From NCBI GenBank assembly GCA_027067555.1, contig JAMOVU010000074.1, positions 1 through 39,258 of the forward strand: a DNA stretch of 39,258 nucleotides. The letters run 5' to 3'. Origin of the DNA: Candidatus Aminicenantota bacterium. Lineage in GTDB: Bacteria; Acidobacteriota; Aminicenantia; JAMOAD01. Each line of letters begins with the position of its first letter. Position 1 is the first letter of the stretch. The notes under the pieces are model-generated. The model worked only from the letters and a program-made list of their open reading frames with translations, was not told the DNA's origin and made no database searches. This document shows positions 9,236 to 39,000 of the stretch, piece after piece. The position numbers were made by a program, and so were the translations under genes.

Positions 9236-9727
9236 ATGGATTACAGTAAGTATTCAGTTAAAGATTGTTTGTTCACAGCAATTAAAAGCGAAATTGAAGC
9301 AAAAGCTGTTTATGAATCATTAGCAAAGCAGGTAAATAATATGATGCTAAAGGACAGATTGCTCTTCCTTGCCGGAGAAGAGGTAAAACACAGAGAATAT
9401 TTCGAAGCCCTATTTAAAAAACTATTTCCGGGAGAAGAACTCATTCTTCCAGAAAAAAGCCCAGTGCCTTTGCCGGAAATAGAAATCAACAAAGAGAATG
9501 TTTTTTTAAGTGAAGTTTTTGGGAAAGCTATGGAAGCGGAGATGGCAGCTTTTGATTTTTATATGCAGCTTTCTAAAAAATTCGGAGATGATGAAACAAA
9601 AAAGATGCTTACTTACATTGCTTACATGGAGAAAGGACACTATAATCTTCTTGAGTTGGAGAGGCGAGCTATTGAAGAGGCTGAAGATTATGAAATAAAT
9701 TGGCCTATGACCCATGTTGGACCATAA
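9236..9727 (+). CDS. Rubrerythrin-like diiron protein without rubredoxin domain
   Basis: A 163-residue ferritin-like four-helix protein. Two halves each carry diiron ligands: SEIEAK (Glu19/21) and EEVKH (Glu49, His52), then EAEM and EKGH. There is no C-terminal rubredoxin domain, so this is the erythrin/sulerythrin-type layout, likely a peroxide reductase served by the separate rubredoxin. The product of superoxide reductase is peroxide, so the neighbouring gene supplies its substrate. The start is the ATG at 9236. A longer open frame from 9008 runs through the superoxide reductase gene in another frame and is not used. The ribosome site before the ATG is weak, suggesting translational coupling. 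Confidence 0.88.
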   Translation: MDYSKYSVKDCLFTAIKSEIEAKAVYESLAKQVNNMMLKDRLLFLAGEEVKHREYFEALFKKLFPGEELILPEKSPVPLPEIEINKENVFLSEVFGKAMEAEMAAFDFYMQLSKKFGDDETKKMLTYIAYMEKGHYNLLELERRAIEEAEDYEINWPMTHVGP

Positions 9728-10076
9728 AATAAGGGGGGGATTTTTCCCCCTCTTTTTTCTTATCTTTTTTTTCGGCTTATCATTGTTGATAAGTGGTACT
9801 ATTTATGAGACAAAATATAAATATGATGCGAATGTTAAAGTGTATAGAACAAAATATAAGTATGAAGCTGATCTTATTGTTTATGTGTCAAGATATAAGT
9901 ATGAGGCTTCTAACAAAGATGAAATTTGGTACTATACGCCTTACAAATATGAAGCTGATGCAAAGGTTTATTTTACAAAATATAAGTATGAAGCTGATTT
10001 AATTGTCTATTTTACGAAATATAAATACGAAGCAAAGTGGGTTAAATCTTCAATGTACCGAAGTTTATTCAAGTAA
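9714..10076 (+). CDS. KYKYEA-repeat protein, DUF6150-like; start uncertain
   Basis: The frame encodes up to 120 residues. From about residue 33 it is six copies of a roughly 13-residue unit, consensus TKYKYEADLIVYF; the third is lengthened by NKDEIW and the last ends in AKWVKSSMYRS. This resembles short repeat proteins I recall as DUF6150, of unknown function. The first 28 residues form a hydrophobic stretch (FFPLFFLIFFFGLSLLIS) that could be a signal peptide, but it is encoded by the terminator stem and its T-tracts and may not be real coding. Other in-frame starts are TTG at 9783 or 9786; none has a ribosome site. It overlaps rubrerythrin by 14 bases and the opposing heptosyltransferase by 8. 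Confidence 0.6.
   Translation: MLDHKIRGGFFPLFFLIFFFGLSLLISGTIYETKYKYDANVKVYRTKYKYEADLIVYVSRYKYEASNKDEIWYYTPYKYEADAKVYFTKYKYEADLIVYFTKYKYEAKWVKSSMYRSLFK
9731..9758 (+). terminator. Rho-independent terminator after rubrerythrin
   Basis: A 10-bp stem, AAGGGGGGGA with TCCCCCTCTT (one G-U pair), loop TTTT, followed by a T-rich run. It closes the rubredoxin-to-rubrerythrin operon, yet lies inside the open frame of the following repeat protein. Confidence 0.85.
9810..10037 (+). repeat. Tandem about 39-bp coding repeats (KYKYEAD units)
   Basis: Six imperfect tandem units in the repeat protein; nucleotide identity is high in the AAATATAAGTATGAAGCTGA core. Units 2 and 5 (ending EADLIVY) are almost identical, as are units 1 and 4, so a three-unit block may have been duplicated. 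Confidence 0.75.
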
Positions 10077-21812: not shown

Positions 21813-21887
21813 TGAAGGAAAATTTTTTTGATTATGTTCGTTATTGGATAATTTGTTTTTTGCATAAAAAACAATAAGGAGGTTTTG

Positions 21888-22589
21888 ATGGAGGAGCTTA
21901 AGCAGGAAAAGAGAAAAACAATTTCAAGAAAAAAATTTATTGAAAATGTGGCAATCGGAGGAGCCCTTTTTCTTTTTAAAGGAGTTGGTATGGTTTCCCT
22001 CTCCTTTGGGAAAGATGGCTCTTATTCCATGATAATAGTTGAATATGAAAAATGTGCCGGATGTAGAACCTGTGAGACCGTATGCTCTGCTTCAAATCAT
22101 CCGATTAGGATTGCAGGTAAAGAGTATCCGGGTCTTGGTAATCCTTATCTTGCGAATATAAAGGTGTACTCTTACAACCCTGATACTTTTGTACCAAATG
22201 TTTGTCAATTCTGTACGGATTCTCCGTGTGTTGATGCATGTCCTTCTCCTATTAATAAAAAAACTGGTAAAAAAGCTCTTTCGAAAGATACTGTATTGGG
22301 TAATATTGTTTACGATCCTACTGTTTGTATGCATTGCGGAAATTGTGCAAGGGCATGTAAGGAAAAGAGCGCAGGAGTCATCATTTTTGATGAGGTAAAC
22401 AGAAGACCTACAGGTATGTGTAATTTGTGCGGAGGAGACCCCCAGTGTGTAAAATATTGTCCCTACGGAGCTTTGCATTTTGTAAAGGGGAAAATTGATA
22501 AGAGAAGATTTTATAAGATGAAGCCTGATAAAATTGCTGAAATTTTGGCTAAAGAATGGTACAAAGGCAAAGGAGGTAAGGTACAATGA
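21888..22589 (+). CDS. Four-cluster ferredoxin partner of aldehyde oxidoreductase
   Basis: A 233-residue ferredoxin with four cysteine groups: CAGCRTCETVC, CQFCTDSPCVDAC, CMHCGNCARAC and CNLCGGDPQCVKYC, enough for four 4Fe-4S clusters as in DMSO-reductase beta subunits. The N-terminus (ISRKKFIENVAIGGALFLF) resembles a Tat leader with Lys-Lys instead of Arg-Arg, and may be an anchor or a relic. It precedes the aldehyde oxidoreductase gene with an ATGA overlap. E. coli YdhY with the AOR-like YdhV is the same kind of pairing, so it probably receives electrons from the tungsten enzyme. Confidence 0.88.
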   Translation: MEELKQEKRKTISRKKFIENVAIGGALFLFKGVGMVSLSFGKDGSYSMIIVEYEKCAGCRTCETVCSASNHPIRIAGKEYPGLGNPYLANIKVYSYNPDTFVPNVCQFCTDSPCVDACPSPINKKTGKKALSKDTVLGNIVYDPTVCMHCGNCARACKEKSAGVIIFDEVNRRPTGMCNLCGGDPQCVKYCPYGALHFVKGKIDKRRFYKMKPDKIAEILAKEWYKGKGGKVQ

Positions 22590-24379
22590 AAATAAAAGGA
22601 TATTACGGTGTTTTTCTTGATATAAATCTTACCGCAGGTAAAATTGAGAAAATACCTGTGAGTGAAAATTTAATAGTAAACTATTTGGGAGGAAGAGGAT
22701 TCGGGGCAAAAATTTTGTATGATAACCTTAAACCCGGTACGGATCCATACGGAGAGGATAATCTCCTTATGTTTATGACTGGCCCTCTTTCAGGTTTTCC
22801 TGTCCCTTCAGCTTCAAGATTAACAGTTATTACAAAATCCCCTCACACATCTCCGGTGAAGAAAAAATATCCCCATTCATCCACTCTGAGTTATTCCAGT
22901 GTGGGAGGTTTTTTTGCTCCTGAGATTAAATTTGCCGGTTATGATGGAATTATTATAAGAGGTAAATCTCCATATCCTGTTTATCTTTATATAAAAAATG
23001 ATAAGGTTGAAATAAGAGATGCAAGGAAATTCTGGGGAATGGGAACAAATGAGTTTGATAAAAAAATAAAAGAAGAGTTTGATGATAAAAAGTTTCAAGT
23101 GATTTACATAGGTCCGTCGGGTGAAAATTTGGTTGAGTACTCAAGCGTTTTACACACAGCTTCAAGAGCTGCCGGGAGAGGAGGTGTTGGTGCTGTTATG
23201 GGTTCCAAAAAGCTTAAAGCAATTGCAGTAAGAGGAACAAAAATGCCTCCGGTGAGCAATCATAAGGATTTTGTGGAATTACTTGAAAAGCATAGGAAGA
23301 TTTTTAAAAGCTCGGGGCAAACATTAAACTGGAGGCTTAATGGGACTGCAGGAGCTTTGGTCTCATCAAGCAGAAGAGGTTCTCAGGCAGTAAAAAACTA
23401 CAGAGAGGGGACATTTAAGGAGATAGATAAAATAGGGGCTGAAGCCGCTCGAAAAAAGTACTGGGTCAAAAATTATGCTTGCTACACTTGTATGCTTGCA
23501 TGCAAAAAGAGTGGGGTTATTACCGACGGACCTTATGCGGGAATTTCCCACGATGGGCCCGAATATGAAACAGGGACAATGTTAGGAGCAAATCTTTTGG
23601 TGTCTGATCTTGCCGGGCTTTTAAAGGAGATCTTTGATGCTGACGATTATGGAGTAGATGCAATTTCAATAGGAAACACAATAGGGTTTTTAATGGAGGC
23701 TTATGAAAAGGGGTTAATTGACATAAAATTTCTTGATGGAATTGATCTTATATGGGGAAATGTTGATGCAATATTAAAAATGATGAAAAAGATTGTTCAC
23801 AGGGATGGCGTAGGAGAGCTTGCTTCACATGGAGTTAAATTTTTATCTGAAAAAATTGGAAAAGGCTCTTCTGAATTTGCAATTCATGTAAAAGGACATG
23901 AACTTGCCGCATGGAATGTTCATGTAAGCCCGAGAACAGGTATAAGTTATGCTACCTCCAACAGAGGAGCCTGTCATCTTAATGGTGGCAGCAAAAGAAG
24001 TCAGGATAGAGGCGCTCTTCTTGATTCATTGGGGATTTGCAGATTTGCATTTTTCGGATACAGGAATGATGGTATAAGAAACTTTATAAATGCGATAACC
24101 GGTATAGGTTATACTGAAGCGGATTTTCTCAAGGTAGGCGAAAGAATATTCAATACTGAAAAAATGTTTAATGTAAGGGAAGGGTTTGATATAAAAGATG
24201 ATGTTTTACCCGAAAGATTTTTTAAAGAGCCACTTTCCTATGGTGCGGGAAAGGGGAAGGTCCTTACAAAGGAAGGATTTTACAGAAAACTTTTACACAA
24301 TTATTATATAGAAAGAGGCTGGGATCCCAAAACAAGCATACCTACAAAGTCAAAGTTAAAGGAGTTAGAGATAAGTTAA
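22586..24379 (+). CDS. Tungsten-type aldehyde:ferredoxin oxidoreductase family
   Basis: A 597-residue AOR-family protein carrying a tungsto-bispyranopterin and one 4Fe-4S cluster. Cluster ligands Cys299, Cys302 and Cys306 lie in CYTCMLACKK, with Cys485 in LGICRF. Pterin-binding segments include GPLSGFPVPSASRL and GPEYETGTMLGANL, and VDAISIGNTIGFLMEA is well kept. The family oxidises aldehydes or aryl carboxyl substrates; the YdhV-like subgroup has no settled substrate. It is coupled to the four-cluster ferredoxin. Its last codons overlap the convergent hydrolase gene by 4 bases. Confidence 0.93.
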   Translation: MKIKGYYGVFLDINLTAGKIEKIPVSENLIVNYLGGRGFGAKILYDNLKPGTDPYGEDNLLMFMTGPLSGFPVPSASRLTVITKSPHTSPVKKKYPHSSTLSYSSVGGFFAPEIKFAGYDGIIIRGKSPYPVYLYIKNDKVEIRDARKFWGMGTNEFDKKIKEEFDDKKFQVIYIGPSGENLVEYSSVLHTASRAAGRGGVGAVMGSKKLKAIAVRGTKMPPVSNHKDFVELLEKHRKIFKSSGQTLNWRLNGTAGALVSSSRRGSQAVKNYREGTFKEIDKIGAEAARKKYWVKNYACYTCMLACKKSGVITDGPYAGISHDGPEYETGTMLGANLLVSDLAGLLKEIFDADDYGVDAISIGNTIGFLMEAYEKGLIDIKFLDGIDLIWGNVDAILKMMKKIVHRDGVGELASHGVKFLSEKIGKGSSEFAIHVKGHELAAWNVHVSPRTGISYATSNRGACHLNGGSKRSQDRGALLDSLGICRFAFFGYRNDGIRNFINAITGIGYTEADFLKVGERIFNTEKMFNVREGFDIKDDVLPERFFKEPLSYGAGKGKVLTKEGFYRKLLHNYYIERGWDPKTSIPTKSKLKELEIS

Positions 24380-31875: not shown

Positions 31876-32028
31876 CTAAAAGCCTCTTTCTTTACACAAC
31901 ATATAAGAAATTTCTTAATTAGCCAGCAGATTGTAATTATTGGTAAAAGTCCTTCCCTTTCTTTATTCATATTGATTTTTTATGTATGTTGTTTGCAATA
32001 CAAATTTTATTGTCCACCTCCTACAAGC

Positions 32029-34227
32029 TTAGAATTTATAGGAAAAACTGATGTAAAACTTTTTACTAAAGGTTTTTGGTATTACTGGTACAATTGGAGA
32101 CTGTATTACTATCTTTGGTAGATAAACCTTTTCATTTAAAAGATTTTCTCCTTTTAATTCAAAAGAAAACTTTGAGCTCAAGCTCGGAAAGAATTTTAAT
32201 CCTATATTGATCAAGGTATAAGGTTCAGCGTCTCCCCATTTCCCCATGTACTTTAATGAAGAATTTATCTCTAAGTTTTTGGTTGGATAAATACTAATTC
32301 CGGCATTTATCATATTAGAGAATGTATATTTAAGTCTTTTATCTTTGTTTTTGTCATGTCCGATAATGTGAGAGTATCAGCCAAACCCATAAACTTTGTC
32401 TTTTATTCCAAATCGAACATTAAGTTCTGTTCCCCAGAATCTCTCTTCTCCTATATTTAAATTTTGAATTCAGGGTTTTCAGGATAGGTAACTCTCTCTA
32501 TTTTATTTTTATTAATTATTTTTGTGGAAAAAAAATCGATATTAAATTGGAGCTCCTTTTTAAACTTTTTTGATATTATAAAATCAAAAGGATTATTCTT
32601 TTCTGGTAGAAGATTCGGGTTGCCCAACATCTTCTCAGCGTACCCCTCTTTTTCGAAATATGTTGGAATTCTAAATGATTTACCGTATATTATTTTGAAA
32701 GAGAGTTTTTCCCTTGGTGTATACACAAGGGAAAGTTTCGGTGAGAAATTGCTGAGTGTGGTTTTGTAATATCTTGCATAATAATATCTACCGCCGTAAA
32801 AAAGTTTTACTTGTTCGAAAATATTATATTCCCCATTTAAATAAAAAGCAAAATCATCAGTCCAAACATTATTTTTTCCTATATCATAATTATTTAATTG
32901 AGATTTGTATCTTCTTCCAATATAATGAGTGTAATTTAGACCTATTCTGTTATAAAACTTTTCACTTGCCCTAAAAATCAATTCGAAAATATTGTAGAAT
33001 CCTTTTGATGAATATTCACAATATTCGTCATTTAATTGTTTTTTAGCTTCCATCTAAAGAAGTCACTTTGAATTTTCATCTCTATTTTTTTTGATATTCT
33101 TTTATTAACACTTATGTTAATAAGATAAGAATTCTCATCACTAATCTCAGGTTTAAGAATTCCTTCTTTGTCTTCTGGGGAAGTGTATATTTTTTTTAAT
33201 TCCCTTGTTCTTACTCCAGGTAAGTTTTTAGAAAAGTATTTTATAAGGCCACTAAAATCTCCATATACAATTTTGGAAATTGAACTAATTCCTCTATATG
33301 ATTTTTCTAACTCCAGAGTTTGCCCTTTTTCATCCTTAAAGGGTAAAGATTCTCCTCTGCTTCTTAAAGTATCGATAAATTAATAAAATTCCAGCTTTCC
33401 ACTTTTCATCATAATAGAATTCTGAAAATAAAATGTATCAAAGCTGCCATACTTAACTCTTCCCTTTACATTGGAATTTCGGTCTTTCTTAATTCTTTTA
33501 CTAATTATGTTAATGACAGCATTGATTGCATTTGTACCATAAAGTACGGAATTTGCTCCTTTGATTATTTCAATTCTTTCTATTGAGCTTAATGGGATGC
33601 TGTTTAAGTCAAAACTTCCATTGTAAGGATTATACAGCAGTATGCCATCAAAAAGTAGAAGAGTATTGGTGTTGTAATTTATTAGAGTATTCCCTCGAAT
33701 AGTTGTTGTAGTAAAAATATTACCTTCTCCGTTTCCTGAGGCAAGGCCGGTAATATATTCTAAAACTTCCTCGAGAGTATTGAAATTTAGAAGTTCAATA
33801 TCTTTTGAGGTAATTACATTAACAGGTGCTGGGGTTTCCATTATTTTTTCGAGTTTTTTGCTTGTAGAATAGACTTTTAAATTCATTAACTCTTTTAAGG
33901 AAAGCTCTACAATCTTAGCTTTTCCAGTTTCTTCTTCCATTAATAGAATCTCATTATTTGATAGGAAGATAGTTTTTTTTATTCTAAATTTTTTGCCAAC
34001 TTCAAACTTAGTCTCTTTTAAATTATAGGGAACAACCATTTTAAAGCTACCGTCTTTTTTAGTTGTTGTACTTATGTTGTAATTTTTTAATTTAATAACA
34101 AGATTTGAGATACCTTTTTCTGTTGTATAATCAATAACTTTCCCTTTATCTTTTGAGATGCATAAGTGTAATTAATAAAAATGATTAAAAGGAAAAGAAA
34201 AATAGCCGCTAACTTTTTTCTAATCAT
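32029..34227 (-). pseudogene. Decayed TonB-dependent outer-membrane receptor
   Basis: Start at 34227 with a signal peptide (IRKKLAAIFLFLLIIFINYTYA), then a carboxypeptidase-regulatory-like domain, a plug (APVNVITSKDIELLNFNTL, EIIKGANSVLYGTNAINAVI) and barrel pieces ending in FYISFSYKF at 32029, a proper terminal Phe. Lesions: -1 at 34139-34141; in-frame TAA at 33382-33380; -1 in the T-run at 33039-33044; -1 at about 32461-32466; in-frame TGA at 32379-32377. The plug belongs to the family that imports siderophores or vitamins or, with YfiR and hybrid kinases, takes part in signalling. Present remnant cannot make a barrel. Confidence 0.88.
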
Positions 34228-34361: not shown

Positions 34362-35204
34362 TTACTTTTTTATAATTTCAAATAATTCATAAGGTGTTTT
34401 ATCATATTTATCAGCTATTTCTTTTAATGTTTCCTCTTCTTTTGCTTTTATCCCATTTTCACTTAATGTTTCTATTATTTTTTTTACAGGTATTTTTAAA
34501 TCAATACTTATTGTTTTTAATGTCATTCTTCCGTAACCCCTTCGGGGAGTGTAATTTTCGGAACTCTGCTTTAACTCTATGCTTTTCCCTGTTTTTTCTT
34601 TGATTTTTTTAAAAAGTTCGCTCGGAGTCATATTATTTTCCTGCGCAATTTCTTCTATTGTCTTATTTTGGTCACTTACCTTTACTCCTGCTTTTTTTAA
34701 TATTTCAAATATTTCAGAGGGTTTCATTTCAATGTATTTTGAAAACTCCTCTACTGTTAATCTCTCAGCATGTGGGACCGGAGGACTGCTCTCTTTATTC
34801 TCCCATGATTCACTTATGTATTCACTTAGATCATAAACATAGGATACGGGAGGTATTTCAAAAATTGAGCCTATTGTAAAAACTAACACAACAATGATGG
34901 TGGCAGCAATTTCTTTTTTGTTTTTTACTGTTCCTGCTGCTTTTGATTTTAAGTAGTGCATTAAAGGTTTCCAATTGTATATAATGTGAAGAATCCCAAA
35001 AAACAAAAACACATACCCGAAAACTGTGTGCCATGCTTCCCACTGGGATTTTTCAAGCCATAAAAGTCTCCAGTTTGTCCAGTGGGCTACTCTTCCGGGC
35101 GGAACTATGTAGAGAATTATTCCTGTAAACACCTCTATTGTAAAGCTCATAAACATCATAAAGCTTGTAAATGCTCTCCAATTAAAGCTTCCTCTCTTTT
35201 TCAT
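34362..35204 (-). CDS. DUF4405 membrane cytochrome b-like protein with helical repeats
   Basis: A 280-residue protein. Residues 1-125 have about three membrane helices with FTGIILYIVPPGR and the His-bearing WHTVFGYVFLFFGILHIIYNW, as in DUF4405/cytochrome b561-like domains that hold b heme. Residues about 150-280 are soluble and contain an internal duplication: units such as KTIEEIAQENNMTPSELFKK and LKEIADKYDKTPYELFEI alternate with related helical units ending in LKKAGV and LSENGI. AAGGAGG precedes the ATG. It is the last gene of the iron-sulfur operon and may link quinol to the NapH-like protein 31 bases upstream. Confidence 0.75.
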   Translation of the reverse strand: MKKRGSFNWRAFTSFMMFMSFTIEVFTGIILYIVPPGRVAHWTNWRLLWLEKSQWEAWHTVFGYVFLFFGILHIIYNWKPLMHYLKSKAAGTVKNKKEIAATIIVVLVFTIGSIFEIPPVSYVYDLSEYISESWENKESSPPVPHAERLTVEEFSKYIEMKPSEIFEILKKAGVKVSDQNKTIEEIAQENNMTPSELFKKIKEKTGKSIELKQSSENYTPRRGYGRMTLKTISIDLKIPVKKIIETLSENGIKAKEEETLKEIADKYDKTPYELFEIIKK

Positions 35205-35235: not shown

Positions 35236-36105
35236 CTAAAAAGCTTTCTCACAATCAAGACAATGCATAGGACATCTTCTTTCGCATTCAAGACAGGAAA
35301 AGCAGTACTCTTTGTTAATCTCAGGAACTTCTTTCATTGTTAATGTTTGAGCAGGACATTTTTTCTCGCATATATTTTTATGTATGCATCTTTCGGGCTT
35401 TTTCAATTTTATGTTAAAAAAACCTATTTTATTTATAATTCCTAATAGAGCGCCAAGGGGGCATACGTATCTGCAAAATGGTCTGTAAATAAAGATGGAT
35501 GATACGAGCAAGATTACCAATAAGATTACTAATAATGTAGTGCCTTCAAGGTTAAATAAAACTTTAAAAGGGTCCATTTTATTAAAAATTCTGTGCTCTT
35601 TAATTATCGGATAGAAAATTATTAGAAAGAGAAAAAAATATCTGAATTTTTTTAAAATATTATCTAATTTTTGGGGTACCCTTATTGCGAAACTTTCCCT
35701 GTAGAGAAATTCTTGAACTGCCCCTTTATGACAGACCCAACCGCAAAAAATATTTCCGAAGAAAAAGACTATTCCGGTTAAAATGGCGAGCCTGAAAAGT
35801 GAAACCCCTATGTTTGAATATCTTCCCATTCCGAGATACATAAAAATTGATTCAAGAGAGCCTGTTGAACAAAGACAGCTTCCCTGATAAAAGCCTAAGT
35901 AAGCAAGGGAGGAGATTAGTGTGACATATCTTAGCCAATAAATCTTTTTATAAAAACCAAAGGTTGCAACAGCTAAAATCCCGAAAAGCACATAGAATTT
36001 AAAAGGAAGTTTAAAGCTGCCTTTTAATAAAATTAATTTTGTGGCAAGTGCAATAAGTCCTACGAATATGGTTATTCCTGTTATTAGTTTTGCTTTCTTA
36101 CTCAT
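35236..36105 (-). CDS. NapH/MauN-type membrane iron-sulfur protein
   Basis: A 289-residue membrane protein with about five to six helices in the first 210 residues. It holds the paired FCGWVCHKGAVQE and FCRYVCPLGALLG motifs (CxxxCP-like), which mark the NapH/RdxA/MauN group that takes electrons from quinol. Two C-terminal ferredoxin motifs follow: CIHKNICEKKCP and CFSCLECERRCP (4Fe-4S each). The 4-base overlap with the preceding lipoprotein gene shows coupling. In nitrate systems NapH passes electrons from quinol to a periplasmic acceptor; here the likely acceptor is the polyferredoxin of the same operon (inference). Confidence 0.85.
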   Translation of the reverse strand: MSKKAKLITGITIFVGLIALATKLILLKGSFKLPFKFYVLFGILAVATFGFYKKIYWLRYVTLISSLAYLGFYQGSCLCSTGSLESIFMYLGMGRYSNIGVSLFRLAILTGIVFFFGNIFCGWVCHKGAVQEFLYRESFAIRVPQKLDNILKKFRYFFLFLIIFYPIIKEHRIFNKMDPFKVLFNLEGTTLLVILLVILLVSSIFIYRPFCRYVCPLGALLGIINKIGFFNIKLKKPERCIHKNICEKKCPAQTLTMKEVPEINKEYCFSCLECERRCPMHCLDCEKAF

Positions 36106-36458
36106 TTTTTCTTAACCTTTAAAACTCCCTCTGAGATTCCTTTCTTTGTGCATTCTCTTATGATTCTTAAAGTTCCTTTTTCTGCGATTAGCATTATCTT
36201 TATCTCTCTTGAAAAATCTCCTCTTTTGATTTTTGTCCATTTGCCCATTTCAAGGATTTTCAGACCCTTTGTTTCGTATTCAGTATCATCAAGGGTTATT
36301 TCACATTTTCTGTGCTCATATTTTAAATGTAGCTTTACAGTTGCAGTCTCTCCCTTTGCAAGCTTCAATGATTCCGGTTCGAACTCAATTATGCAGGAGA
36401 GACCGGAAAGTATAACCAGACCAAAAAGAATTAATGAAATTAATATTTTTTTTCTCAT
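36102..36458 (-). CDS. Small lipoprotein, unknown
   Basis: A 118-residue protein with a lipoprotein leader: RKK, a hydrophobic core, and the lipobox LSGLSC (Cys at about residue 22). The mature part is a short beta-sandwich-like domain (EFEPESLKLAKGETATVKLHLKY is reminiscent of an immunoglobulin-like or invasin-type domain) with two further Cys (RKCEI, RECTK). I do not recognise a family. It is positioned between the outer-membrane barrel and the NapH-like gene and overlaps the latter by 4 bases, so it probably works with them. Confidence 0.65.
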   Translation of the reverse strand: MRKKILISLILFGLVILSGLSCIIEFEPESLKLAKGETATVKLHLKYEHRKCEITLDDTEYETKGLKILEMGKWTKIKRGDFSREIKIMLIAEKGTLRIIRECTKKGISEGVLKVKKK

Positions 36459-36467
36459 TTTAACCTC

Positions 36468-37643
36468 CTAAAAAACTATTCTCAAATTTACGGCTATTTG
36501 TGAGCCTTTGTAAACACCACTCCAGACAGAGTAAGTGGCGAGTATTTTGTACTTTTCTCTTTTATCAAGATTTAATTCCAAAGTAGCGTCAAATTCATCG
36601 GATATAAAATCAAAGGCACTTTTTTCGGAATTAAGATAGTAAGCAAATTTTATTGAGCTTTTTTTGTAAATAGAGGGAATGTATTTTAGGACTGCTCCGT
36701 AAATATTTCCCTGTCTTACGGTAAAATGCTGTCTTTCTCCAAAATACGTGGTCCCAAAGATAGGGGTGAACATTGAATTTTCCCCTGTACTTCCGTGAAG
36801 GTAAGAGAGTTTCAGAGAGAGAGAACCAAAAGAAGAGTATCTTATTGTTTTTAATACGCTTGTATTAATTCCATAGGCTATATCATTATCGATATCAAAA
36901 TGCTGGATGGCAAATTCCGAGAAAATTTGAAAACTTCTTGTGATTCTTATCTTTGAATAAAGACTTAGAGTGTTTGTTCTCATGTTTGGATCCTGGGTCT
37001 GTGATCTTACATAAAGCAGTCCGTATTCACTCTTTTTGATTCTTAAATTGTATTGAAGGAAACCCATAAGAATATCTCCCCATTCAGTATGTACCAGGTT
37101 TTTCCAGCAGGGCCTGTAATTGTAAAAAAAGCATTTTTGACACCCTATCGCCTCTTTTGCAACATAGATTGAATAAACACCTGCTCCACCTGACAGATAT
37201 GACCTGTCTCCTATTTTAAAGCTTAATCCATCAAAAAAATCATCTAAAACAAGACCTGTTGCAACTGTAATTTCCTGTCTTCCGAGATTAATTGAAAAAT
37301 TATCACTCAAATATTTTTCAAAGTTTAATCTTCTTATTTGCAAGGGAGAAATCTCCGGAAGATCCTTACAGGGAGTGTATTTTTTATCCTTGTAAATACC
37401 TTCGAACTGGAAAGAAGAACTTTCTCCTTCATAGCTTATTGCCGATGATATGCTACCAAAGAGATAGTTCTCCCCATTATAATTATAAAAAAAGCTTTTT
37501 AATTCCACTCCCCAATAAAAGTTTGTATCTCCTATGGGTTTTAAATTTGCAAAGAGTCTTGAAGGGCAGTCTTTTGAATGAAGATGTGAAAAGCCGAGGA
37601 AAAAGGTTAAAAATATGGTAAAGATAATAACTCTTTTTTTCAT
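36468..37643 (-). CDS. Outer-membrane beta-barrel protein, unknown
   Basis: A 391-residue protein with a signal peptide (KKRVIIFTIFLTFFLGFSHLHS, about residues 2-23) and alternating amphipathic strands throughout, such as YLFGSISSAISYEGESSSFQ and SIKFAYYLNSEKSAF, ending in NLRIVF with a terminal Phe. This is a transmembrane porin-like barrel. A loop near residue 165-180 holds three Cys (GCQKCFFYNYRPCW). No TonB plug is present. Its ATG follows the polyferredoxin stop after one base, a strong hint that the barrel and the iron-sulfur protein form one complex. Confidence 0.72.
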   Translation of the reverse strand: MKKRVIIFTIFLTFFLGFSHLHSKDCPSRLFANLKPIGDTNFYWGVELKSFFYNYNGENYLFGSISSAISYEGESSSFQFEGIYKDKKYTPCKDLPEISPLQIRRLNFEKYLSDNFSINLGRQEITVATGLVLDDFFDGLSFKIGDRSYLSGGAGVYSIYVAKEAIGCQKCFFYNYRPCWKNLVHTEWGDILMGFLQYNLRIKKSEYGLLYVRSQTQDPNMRTNTLSLYSKIRITRSFQIFSEFAIQHFDIDNDIAYGINTSVLKTIRYSSFGSLSLKLSYLHGSTGENSMFTPIFGTTYFGERQHFTVRQGNIYGAVLKYIPSIYKKSSIKFAYYLNSEKSAFDFISDEFDATLELNLDKREKYKILATYSVWSGVYKGSQIAVNLRIVF

Positions 37644-37644
37644 T

Positions 37645-38412
37645 TTATCCTCTCTTTATAGCTCCGAATTCACAATGTGAAATACAGGATGTGCATGCGA
37701 CACAATTCTCCTGCAAAATTGTGGCTTTATAGAGCTCTCCTTTGATTGCTCCTGTCGGACATACAGCATAGCATTTACCGCAATTCGTACATTTCTCTTT
37801 ATCCATAATTGCAGGTGTCCCTTTTATCACAGCATCATACTTACAAACCTCATAACAATTACCACAGTAAGTACACTTATCAGGGTTAATATGGGCTTCG
37901 GCTTTTTCTATAGCTCCGTAAGAGCAGGCTTTATAGCAATCACCGCACTTCACACATTTTGAAGTATTAATTTCAGCTTTTCCTCCAGCCCAGTAAATTG
38001 CATCATATTTACATGCTTCAATACAATCTCCGCAGCCGGTACACCTTCCTCTTCTTACATGATATTCTTCCGGATCAAAGGTAATGGCATTACCTTCACA
38101 TACCTTTGCGCAATCACCGCATCCCACGCAATTATCCGAATTTATATCAAATCCTCTCTGTTCAACATAAATTGCATTATCTTCGCAGACATCCTCGCAT
38201 TTCCCACACCCTACGCACTCTTCCTCAACCACCCAAAAATTGCTTGTCTTAGGGAGGTAAATTGCGTTATAACTGCAATAGTTTAGGCATTCTCCACATC
38301 CTACGCAAAGTTCCTTATCTATTAATATTACCTCAGTGTATCCTTTTTTTATACAGCCTTTTAACACAGAGGCTAATATCGGAAGAGTTATAAGAAAATC
38401 TTTTCTTCTCAT
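37645..38412 (-). CDS. Exported polyferredoxin with eight 4Fe-4S motifs
   Basis: A 255-residue protein of which almost all is eight CxxCxxCxxxC units (CVGCGECLNYC, CVGCGKCEDVC, CVGCGDCAKVC, CTGCGDCIEAC, CVKCGDCYKAC, CTYCGNCYEVC, CTNCGKCYAVC, CVACTSCISHC) spaced about 28-30 residues, a chain of up to eight 4Fe-4S clusters. No CxxCH heme site. The N-terminus MRRKDFLITLPILASVLKGC has a twin-arginine RRKDFL and a lipobox-like VLKGC, so export by Tat and lipidation are both possible. Linear cluster spacing and the neighbouring barrel suggest an electron wire. Polyferredoxins of this size are known in methanogens as cytoplasmic carriers. Confidence 0.9.
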   Translation of the reverse strand: MRRKDFLITLPILASVLKGCIKKGYTEVILIDKELCVGCGECLNYCSYNAIYLPKTSNFWVVEEECVGCGKCEDVCEDNAIYVEQRGFDINSDNCVGCGDCAKVCEGNAITFDPEEYHVRRGRCTGCGDCIEACKYDAIYWAGGKAEINTSKCVKCGDCYKACSYGAIEKAEAHINPDKCTYCGNCYEVCKYDAVIKGTPAIMDKEKCTNCGKCYAVCPTGAIKGELYKATILQENCVACTSCISHCEFGAIKRG

Positions 38413-38493: not shown

Positions 38494-38967
38494 TTAAAAC
38501 CTTCTTCTTCCCTGACCTCTTCCCTGTCCTCTGCCCATTCCTTTGCCTTTATTATTATTTCTCTGCCCTGCCCAAAGGGGAAAACCATTGGAATCTCTTA
38601 GCTTGAGCTCTTTGCCATTGTATTTTAATTGGGAAGCCATTATAACTGGTTCATTATTATAAATTACCTTTGAGCCTGTAACCTTTATTGGTTCGCCAAT
38701 TTTAAATAAAATCTTGTTATTCTCAAGAAACCAGTAGGGGGCCACATGGATATAGATAGGTCCGTTGTTTGTTTGAATGTTTAATCTTGTTGTGGTATAT
38801 GTTCTGATTTTCACAGAATCAATAGCGATGATTTTACCTTCTACAGTGGTTATAGTTTCCGGATTAAAGTATCGAGGATAATTGGCATTTCTTCTGTAAT
38901 AATTTTGAGTTAAAGCAAATGTTGCTACAAAAAGTAACACAATAAAAACTATTGTGAGTTTTTTCAT
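38494..38967 (-). CDS. Small secreted OB-like protein with Gly/Arg tail
   Basis: A 157-residue protein: a signal peptide (KKLTIVFIVLLFVATFALTQ, cleavage near residue 20), a beta-rich domain (TTVEGKIIAIDSVKI to PVIMASQLKYNGKELKLRD) that looks like a small OB-fold, with HVAPYWFLENNKI in its middle, and a low-complexity GRGQGRGQG tail. Similar proteins, in my recall, accompany periplasmic redox clusters in iron-reducing bacteria; no function is assigned. The first gene of the operon. The ATG at 38967 is used since the ATG at 38979 is inside ATGGAGGTAAAAATG. Confidence 0.7.
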   Translation of the reverse strand: MKKLTIVFIVLLFVATFALTQNYYRRNANYPRYFNPETITTVEGKIIAIDSVKIRTYTTTRLNIQTNNGPIYIHVAPYWFLENNKILFKIGEPIKVTGSKVIYNNEPVIMASQLKYNGKELKLRDSNGFPLWAGQRNNNKGKGMGRGQGRGQGRRRF

Positions 38968-39000
38968 TTTTACCTCCATGTTTTTTAATGCGATTTTCTA

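Follow-up and report, generated by a model that had tools for sequence, protein, structure and literature searches.

A conserved Aminicenantes gene cassette linking a predicted eight-cluster polyferredoxin lipoprotein with a putative outer-membrane barrel and a NapH-like protein

The outer-membrane electron conduits MtrAB and PioAB use c-type haems, and the barrel component MtrB has 26 strands. Tandem Fer4 motifs are found in MvhB and FwdF, components of methanogen enzyme complexes that are cytoplasmic. NapG and NapH together make up a quinol dehydrogenase that serves a periplasmic reductase, and Tat targeting has been demonstrated experimentally for the natural NapH-NapG fusion polyferredoxin of MLMS-1 (PMC5449189). 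In the open-licence literature, represented mostly by titles and abstracts, we found neither an iron-sulfur porin conduit nor a porin-polyferredoxin pairing. The locus described here has features of all three systems. It shares with MtrAB and PioAB an outer-membrane barrel gene beside a putatively exported multi-centre electron carrier, but the carrier is an iron-sulfur protein devoid of CXXCH, an MtrC-like surface protein is lacking, and the barrel, at about 370 aa and about 16-18 predicted strands, is smaller than MtrB. As in NapG/NapH and the MLMS-1 fusion (PMC5449189), a NapH-like membrane 4Fe-4S protein accompanies a 4Fe-4S ferredoxin that is probably Tat-targeted and periplasm-side; however, this ferredoxin has a predicted eight clusters rather than four and a lipoprotein-like leader, and its cassette adds a fixed outer-membrane barrel and lacks the Nap reductase and NapC/NapB. 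MvhB and FwdF (9sw6, 5t5i) are among its best PDB sequence relatives, but are parts of enzyme complexes and have no export leader.

The polyferredoxin and its gene neighbourhood

The locus lies in the window, by which we mean the whole 39,258-nucleotide stretch of DNA that was analysed, from a genome of 202 contigs that is 97.7% complete. Its features, in window coordinates, are:

37645..38412, minus strand: eight-motif ferredoxin (polyFd), predicted to hold 8 x [4Fe-4S], with a Tat-like leader and lipobox-like Cys20
38353..38412, minus strand: polyFd leader peptide MRRKDFLITLPILASVLKGC, with R3-K4 in Tat register and C20 as the predicted lipidation site
36468..37643, minus strand: outer-membrane beta-barrel of 16-18 predicted strands, 1 bp downstream of polyFd, with a signal peptide and a C-terminal LRIVF beta-signal
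36102..36458, minus strand: small secreted protein whose three conserved Cys are C22, C52 and C103, with an EHRxC motif
35236..36105, minus strand: NapH/NosR-like polytopic 4Fe-4S membrane protein, a putative quinol dehydrogenase
34362..35204, minus strand: accessory DUF4405 protein, cytochrome b-like, 3 TM, present in the G000, G001 and G026 cassettes
38494..38979, minus strand: accessory secreted OB-like protein with a distant MamS/MamX match and an RDxxGFPLW motif

The preliminary description of this DNA had reported eight CxxCxxCxxxC units in 255 residues. This count is borne out for the product of the minus strand (38412-37645), the plus-strand translation of the same interval containing stops. 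The motifs start at residues 36, 66, 95, 124, 153, 180, 208 and 237 (spacing 30, 29, 29, 29, 27, 28, 29) and take up 32 of the 33 Cys residues, leaving Cys20 as the sole Cys outside them. Shuffling the residues 20,000 times yielded at most three motifs, and Pfam Fer4 matches the protein eight times (E 1e-51). PolyFd thus carries the eight motifs of an 8[4Fe-4S] polyferredoxin, from which occupancy by eight clusters would be expected; a single-sequence AlphaFold model was of very low confidence (pLDDT 33). An AGGAG lies just 5' of the ATG and the relatives begin at the same place, both of which support the start codon.

In a short-peptide scan of public contigs, the full-length polyFd matches came from Candidatus Aminicenantes bacteria. 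A profile built from all ten polyFd proteins, with the best 18 candidates scored in each of 142 genomes of the class Aminicenantia, found a full-length copy in exactly ten. The nine relatives all have eight motifs at the same spacing, except that the third interval is 28 in two members. None of the nine starts at a downstream codon that would remove the leader, an arrangement that the preliminary description had named as evidence against export. The start in G019 is ambiguous (TTG or an upstream ATG). A barrel profile run against the 142 genomes recovered the same ten and no others; the naive probability of this overlap, which ignores relatedness, is 1.5e-15. These carriers span seven genera and six families. 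No further carrier outside the class was found with the barrel profile in a 396-genome sample of the phylum; coverage beyond the phylum consisted of the contig scan and plasmids, and the barrel had no match in plasmids.

The polyFd and barrel genes adjoin in all ten carrier genomes, and the order polyFd, barrel, small Cys protein, NapH-like protein, with identical strand, is kept in nine. The exception is G026, whose cassette is divided over two contigs, with the small Cys protein displaced by ~4 kb; G002 has two barrel copies. In the window the three successive intergenic gaps are 1, 9 and -4 bp, so that the genes nearly overlap. At the level of sequence, then, the cassette is a conserved and strictly linked four-gene set of some Aminicenantes, a neighbourhood that the preliminary description did not mention.

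Around this core, several cassettes contain accessory genes for the DUF4405 protein, which has a match to IF2_N-type repeats towards its C-terminus (E 2e-8), for the OB-like protein, and for a second barrel with a DxDGDG repeat protein, and several also contain a histidine kinase and a sigma-54 (NtrC) regulator. DxDGDG, second barrel, OB-like, histidine kinase and sigma-54 regulator genes surround cassettes at L037 (8228-12920), L059, L061 and L062. Among DUF4405 relatives H59, H73 and H83 are conserved and H41 is not. A separate small ORF of the window (9714-10076, plus strand) consists of near-repeats of KYKYEAxxxVYxTKYKYEA. None of the cassette genes was recognisable as a reductase.

The NapH-like protein has the polytopic architecture of NapH and NosR, with two Cx3C(P) sites and two C-terminal 4Fe-4S sites, and it matches both models at E about 1e-19. 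Its score of 70 bits falls below both curated cut-offs (213 and 1000), making it a relative rather than a member of NapH/NosR; a role in supplying NosZ was also considered for it. For polyFd itself, the best 25 of its 97 NCBIfam matches do not include NapG (TIGR00397), and neither do the 25 families listed as matching at E 1e-20.

Leader peptide and export

The leader MRRKDFLITLPILASVLKGC is short and hydrophobic and ends at Cys20. The preliminary description called RRKDFL Tat-like and VLKGC lipobox-like, and both descriptions need refining. The sequence is Tat-like, but the pair in register with R-R-x-F is R3-K4 rather than R2-R3, the Phe lying three residues past R3. In LKGC, Leu at -3 and Gly at -1 fit a lipobox, but Lys at -2 fails the strict PROSITE pattern, as do the leaders of five other members, mostly through Lys or Glu at the same position; four of the ten pass.

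Aligning the ten proteins distinguished the two elements. A Cys ending the hydrophobic stretch is kept in all ten despite diverged flanks, whereas an in-register RRxF occurs in only six (RRDFL, RRDFI twice, RRCFI, RRTFL and RRAFV). Two members, the window protein and that of G002, have R-K in the Tat register. The remaining two, both from f5/g7 genomes, have a single Arg, followed by Ser in G137 (MKRSEFVR) and by Leu in G134 (MNRLEFVR). The lipobox Cys is therefore better conserved than the twin arginine. In G077 and G110 the RR is preceded by a longer n-region, and the L036 leader, read from the alignment, has RRCFI and Cys20. The R-S and R-L relatives, at L059 4617-5381 and L060 3242-4000 (minus strand), retain the leader Cys.

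Replacement of Arg by Lys at either position of the Tat pair, or of the second Arg by Asn or Gln, still permits export, whereas export is blocked when both become Lys or the first becomes Ala (PMC1182353); the R-K leader of polyFd could therefore still use Tat. Since such leaders are usable, TatC is encoded in all six genomes searched, including that of the window, and a molybdopterin enzyme of the window genome bears a canonical Tat-type leader, SRREFFKR, the earlier proposal of a Tat lipoprotein is likely to be correct for most members. Export by this route is probably not uniform, because two of the ten leaders have neither RR nor RK. We infer Tat export, lipidation of Cys20 and the membrane that would hold the lipid from these leader features. 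The preliminary remark that polyferredoxins are mostly described as cytoplasmic overlooks exported relatives, namely NapG and the NapH-NapG fusion of MLMS-1, both of them Tat-dependent (PMC5449189).

Elsewhere in the window, a 4Fe-4S protein (21885-24379, plus strand) carries a Tat-like leader, ISRKKFIENVAIGGALF, with R-K in register. The gene directly downstream resembles one for aldehyde:ferredoxin oxidoreductase. Enzymes of that type are normally cytoplasmic, which makes a Tat-like leader on their neighbour odd.

The barrel and the haem inventory of the carriers

The barrel has no Pfam match. A profile of the family hits OmpM, a porin from Veillonella, at E 9e-5, and its C-termini, for example NLRIVF and DVRLTF, resemble outer-membrane insertion signals. 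A weak model from five sequences (pLDDT 49) has ~18 strands, and its fold hits are AlgE, Occ channels and porins; we use it only as support for the predicted identity as an outer-membrane barrel. The likeness to AlgE/OprD-family and OmpM barrels lies in the predicted 16-18 strands, but the similarity is distant, and the cassette family has invariant CQ and RQG motifs of its own, the CQ (C168-Q169 in the window) lying inside a CQKCFFYxYxxCWK loop. The protein may be an ordinary porin. The window also contains a TonB-dependent receptor in several frames (31885-34039, minus strand), with a Plug at 33380-34039 and barrel pieces at 32457-33053 and 32029-32313; this broken gene reflects either assembly-error frameshifts or a pseudogene.

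CXXCH was absent from the window cassette and from the ORFs of loci L058-L062, and the cassette thus lacks the multihaem c-type cytochrome of an MtrAB-type conduit. Three genomes belonging to the window's genus, 97-99% complete, gave neither CcsA/CcmC/CcmF nor paired-CXXCH matches, and CcmB had no match in any of the ten carriers. The other seven genomes encode a CcsA/CcmC/CcmF-type assembly protein, and G019 has many multihaem matches. We accordingly dropped the notion that iron-sulfur clusters simply replace haem in all carriers; the system is compatible with, but not defined by, the absence of haem c.

A proposed electron route and its competitors

The reading that we favour, to which we assign a probability of about 0.5, is a NapGH-like quinol:ferredoxin route in which the part of NapG would be played by an eight-cluster lipoprotein and electrons would pass to the outer-membrane barrel and on to an acceptor on the cell surface or beyond it. 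By analogy with NapG and NapH (PMC5449189), the NapH/NosR-like protein of the operon would transfer quinol electrons from the inner membrane to polyFd, which, exported folded by Tat and anchored by lipidated Cys20, would face the periplasm. As a string of four 2[4Fe-4S] units, polyFd could carry electrons across the periplasm to its dedicated barrel partner; the combination of eight tandem clusters, a lipid anchor and a dedicated barrel suggests delivery toward the outer membrane. The direction of flow, contact between polyFd and the barrel, and an outer-membrane or extracellular end point are the conjectural elements of this scheme.

Several lines of evidence favour the quinol-to-barrel route: the near-invariant motif spacing and the leader Cys in 10/10 members, RR or RK in 8/10 and TatC in 6/6 genomes; the co-occurrence of polyFd and barrel in 10/142 genomes, always adjacent, with cassette genes that nearly overlap in the window; the beta-signal, OmpM match and AlgE/Occ/porin model matches of the barrel; the NapH-like match at E ~1e-19; the absence of c-type assembly and paired-CXXCH matches in three genomes of the window's genus; and a molybdopterin enzyme in G000 that has its own Fe-S partner. 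Against it we count a possibly ordinary porin, two leaders without RR or RK, six that fail the strict lipobox, the absence of an encoded surface reductase, and haem c assembly genes in 7/10 carriers. A more specific, cytochrome-free version, in which polyFd docks with or plugs the barrel in an MtrA-like role and quinol-derived electrons exit through its [4Fe-4S] clusters, is a tentative proposal that we regard as rather doubtful.

The best-surviving competitor, possible although we would not bet on it, is that a NapGH-like module supplies a periplasmic reductase encoded elsewhere and that the barrel is a porin admitting the acceptor, such as an oxyanion, to the periplasm. NapGH itself feeds a periplasmic reductase (PMC5449189), barrels of the 16-18-strand AlgE/Occ/porin type normally conduct solutes, and in Geobacter a porin, ExtI, has been linked to the reduction of selenite and tellurite (PMC5877670). 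At least one molybdopterin-family match was found in each of the ten carrier genomes; however, that of G026 is weak (E 4e-7), the single molybdopterin enzyme of G000 has its own 4Fe-4S partner gene, and the cassettes contain no recognised reductase.

The same chain might instead serve electron uptake, with a donor outside the cell or in the periplasm feeding the quinone pool. This is unlikely: the potentials of [4Fe-4S] ferredoxins are usually low, the known role of NapH-type proteins is that of quinol dehydrogenases, and no outer-membrane donor oxidase was seen. Anatomy, however, does not fix direction, and porin-cytochrome conduits also run inward, PioAB being an example (PMC6831781). We consider it improbable that polyFd is not a conductor but a store of electrons, iron or sulfide, or a sensor or buffer of envelope redox stress, in a system whose barrel and OB proteins handle metal. 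The distant MamS/MamX likeness of the OB proteins and the histidine kinase and NtrC regulator of several cassettes would suit such a role, but the constant NapH-like linkage and the fixed spacing of the motifs favour electron transfer. A cytoplasmic polyferredoxin with a fortuitous leader, or one serving as a mere inner-side membrane anchor, would suit the two relatives without a twin-Arg pair and the kinship with MvhB and FwdF, but is very improbable given the universal leader Cys amid diverged flanks, RR or RK in eight members, and an operon shared with a secreted protein and a predicted outer-membrane barrel.

If the quinol-to-barrel route is correct, an operon of quinol dehydrogenase, eight-cluster ferredoxin lipoprotein and barrel would be a candidate iron-sulfur counterpart of the haem conduits, and it occurs in a genus where cytochrome c assembly genes were not detected. 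Genome screening for extracellular electron transfer would then change, since counting CXXCH motifs would miss an iron-sulfur conduit. The leaders also raise the question of how a folded octa-[4Fe-4S] protein is exported when two relatives have no twin arginine. For an uncultured Aminicenantes lineage, the cassette provides a testable respiratory hypothesis.
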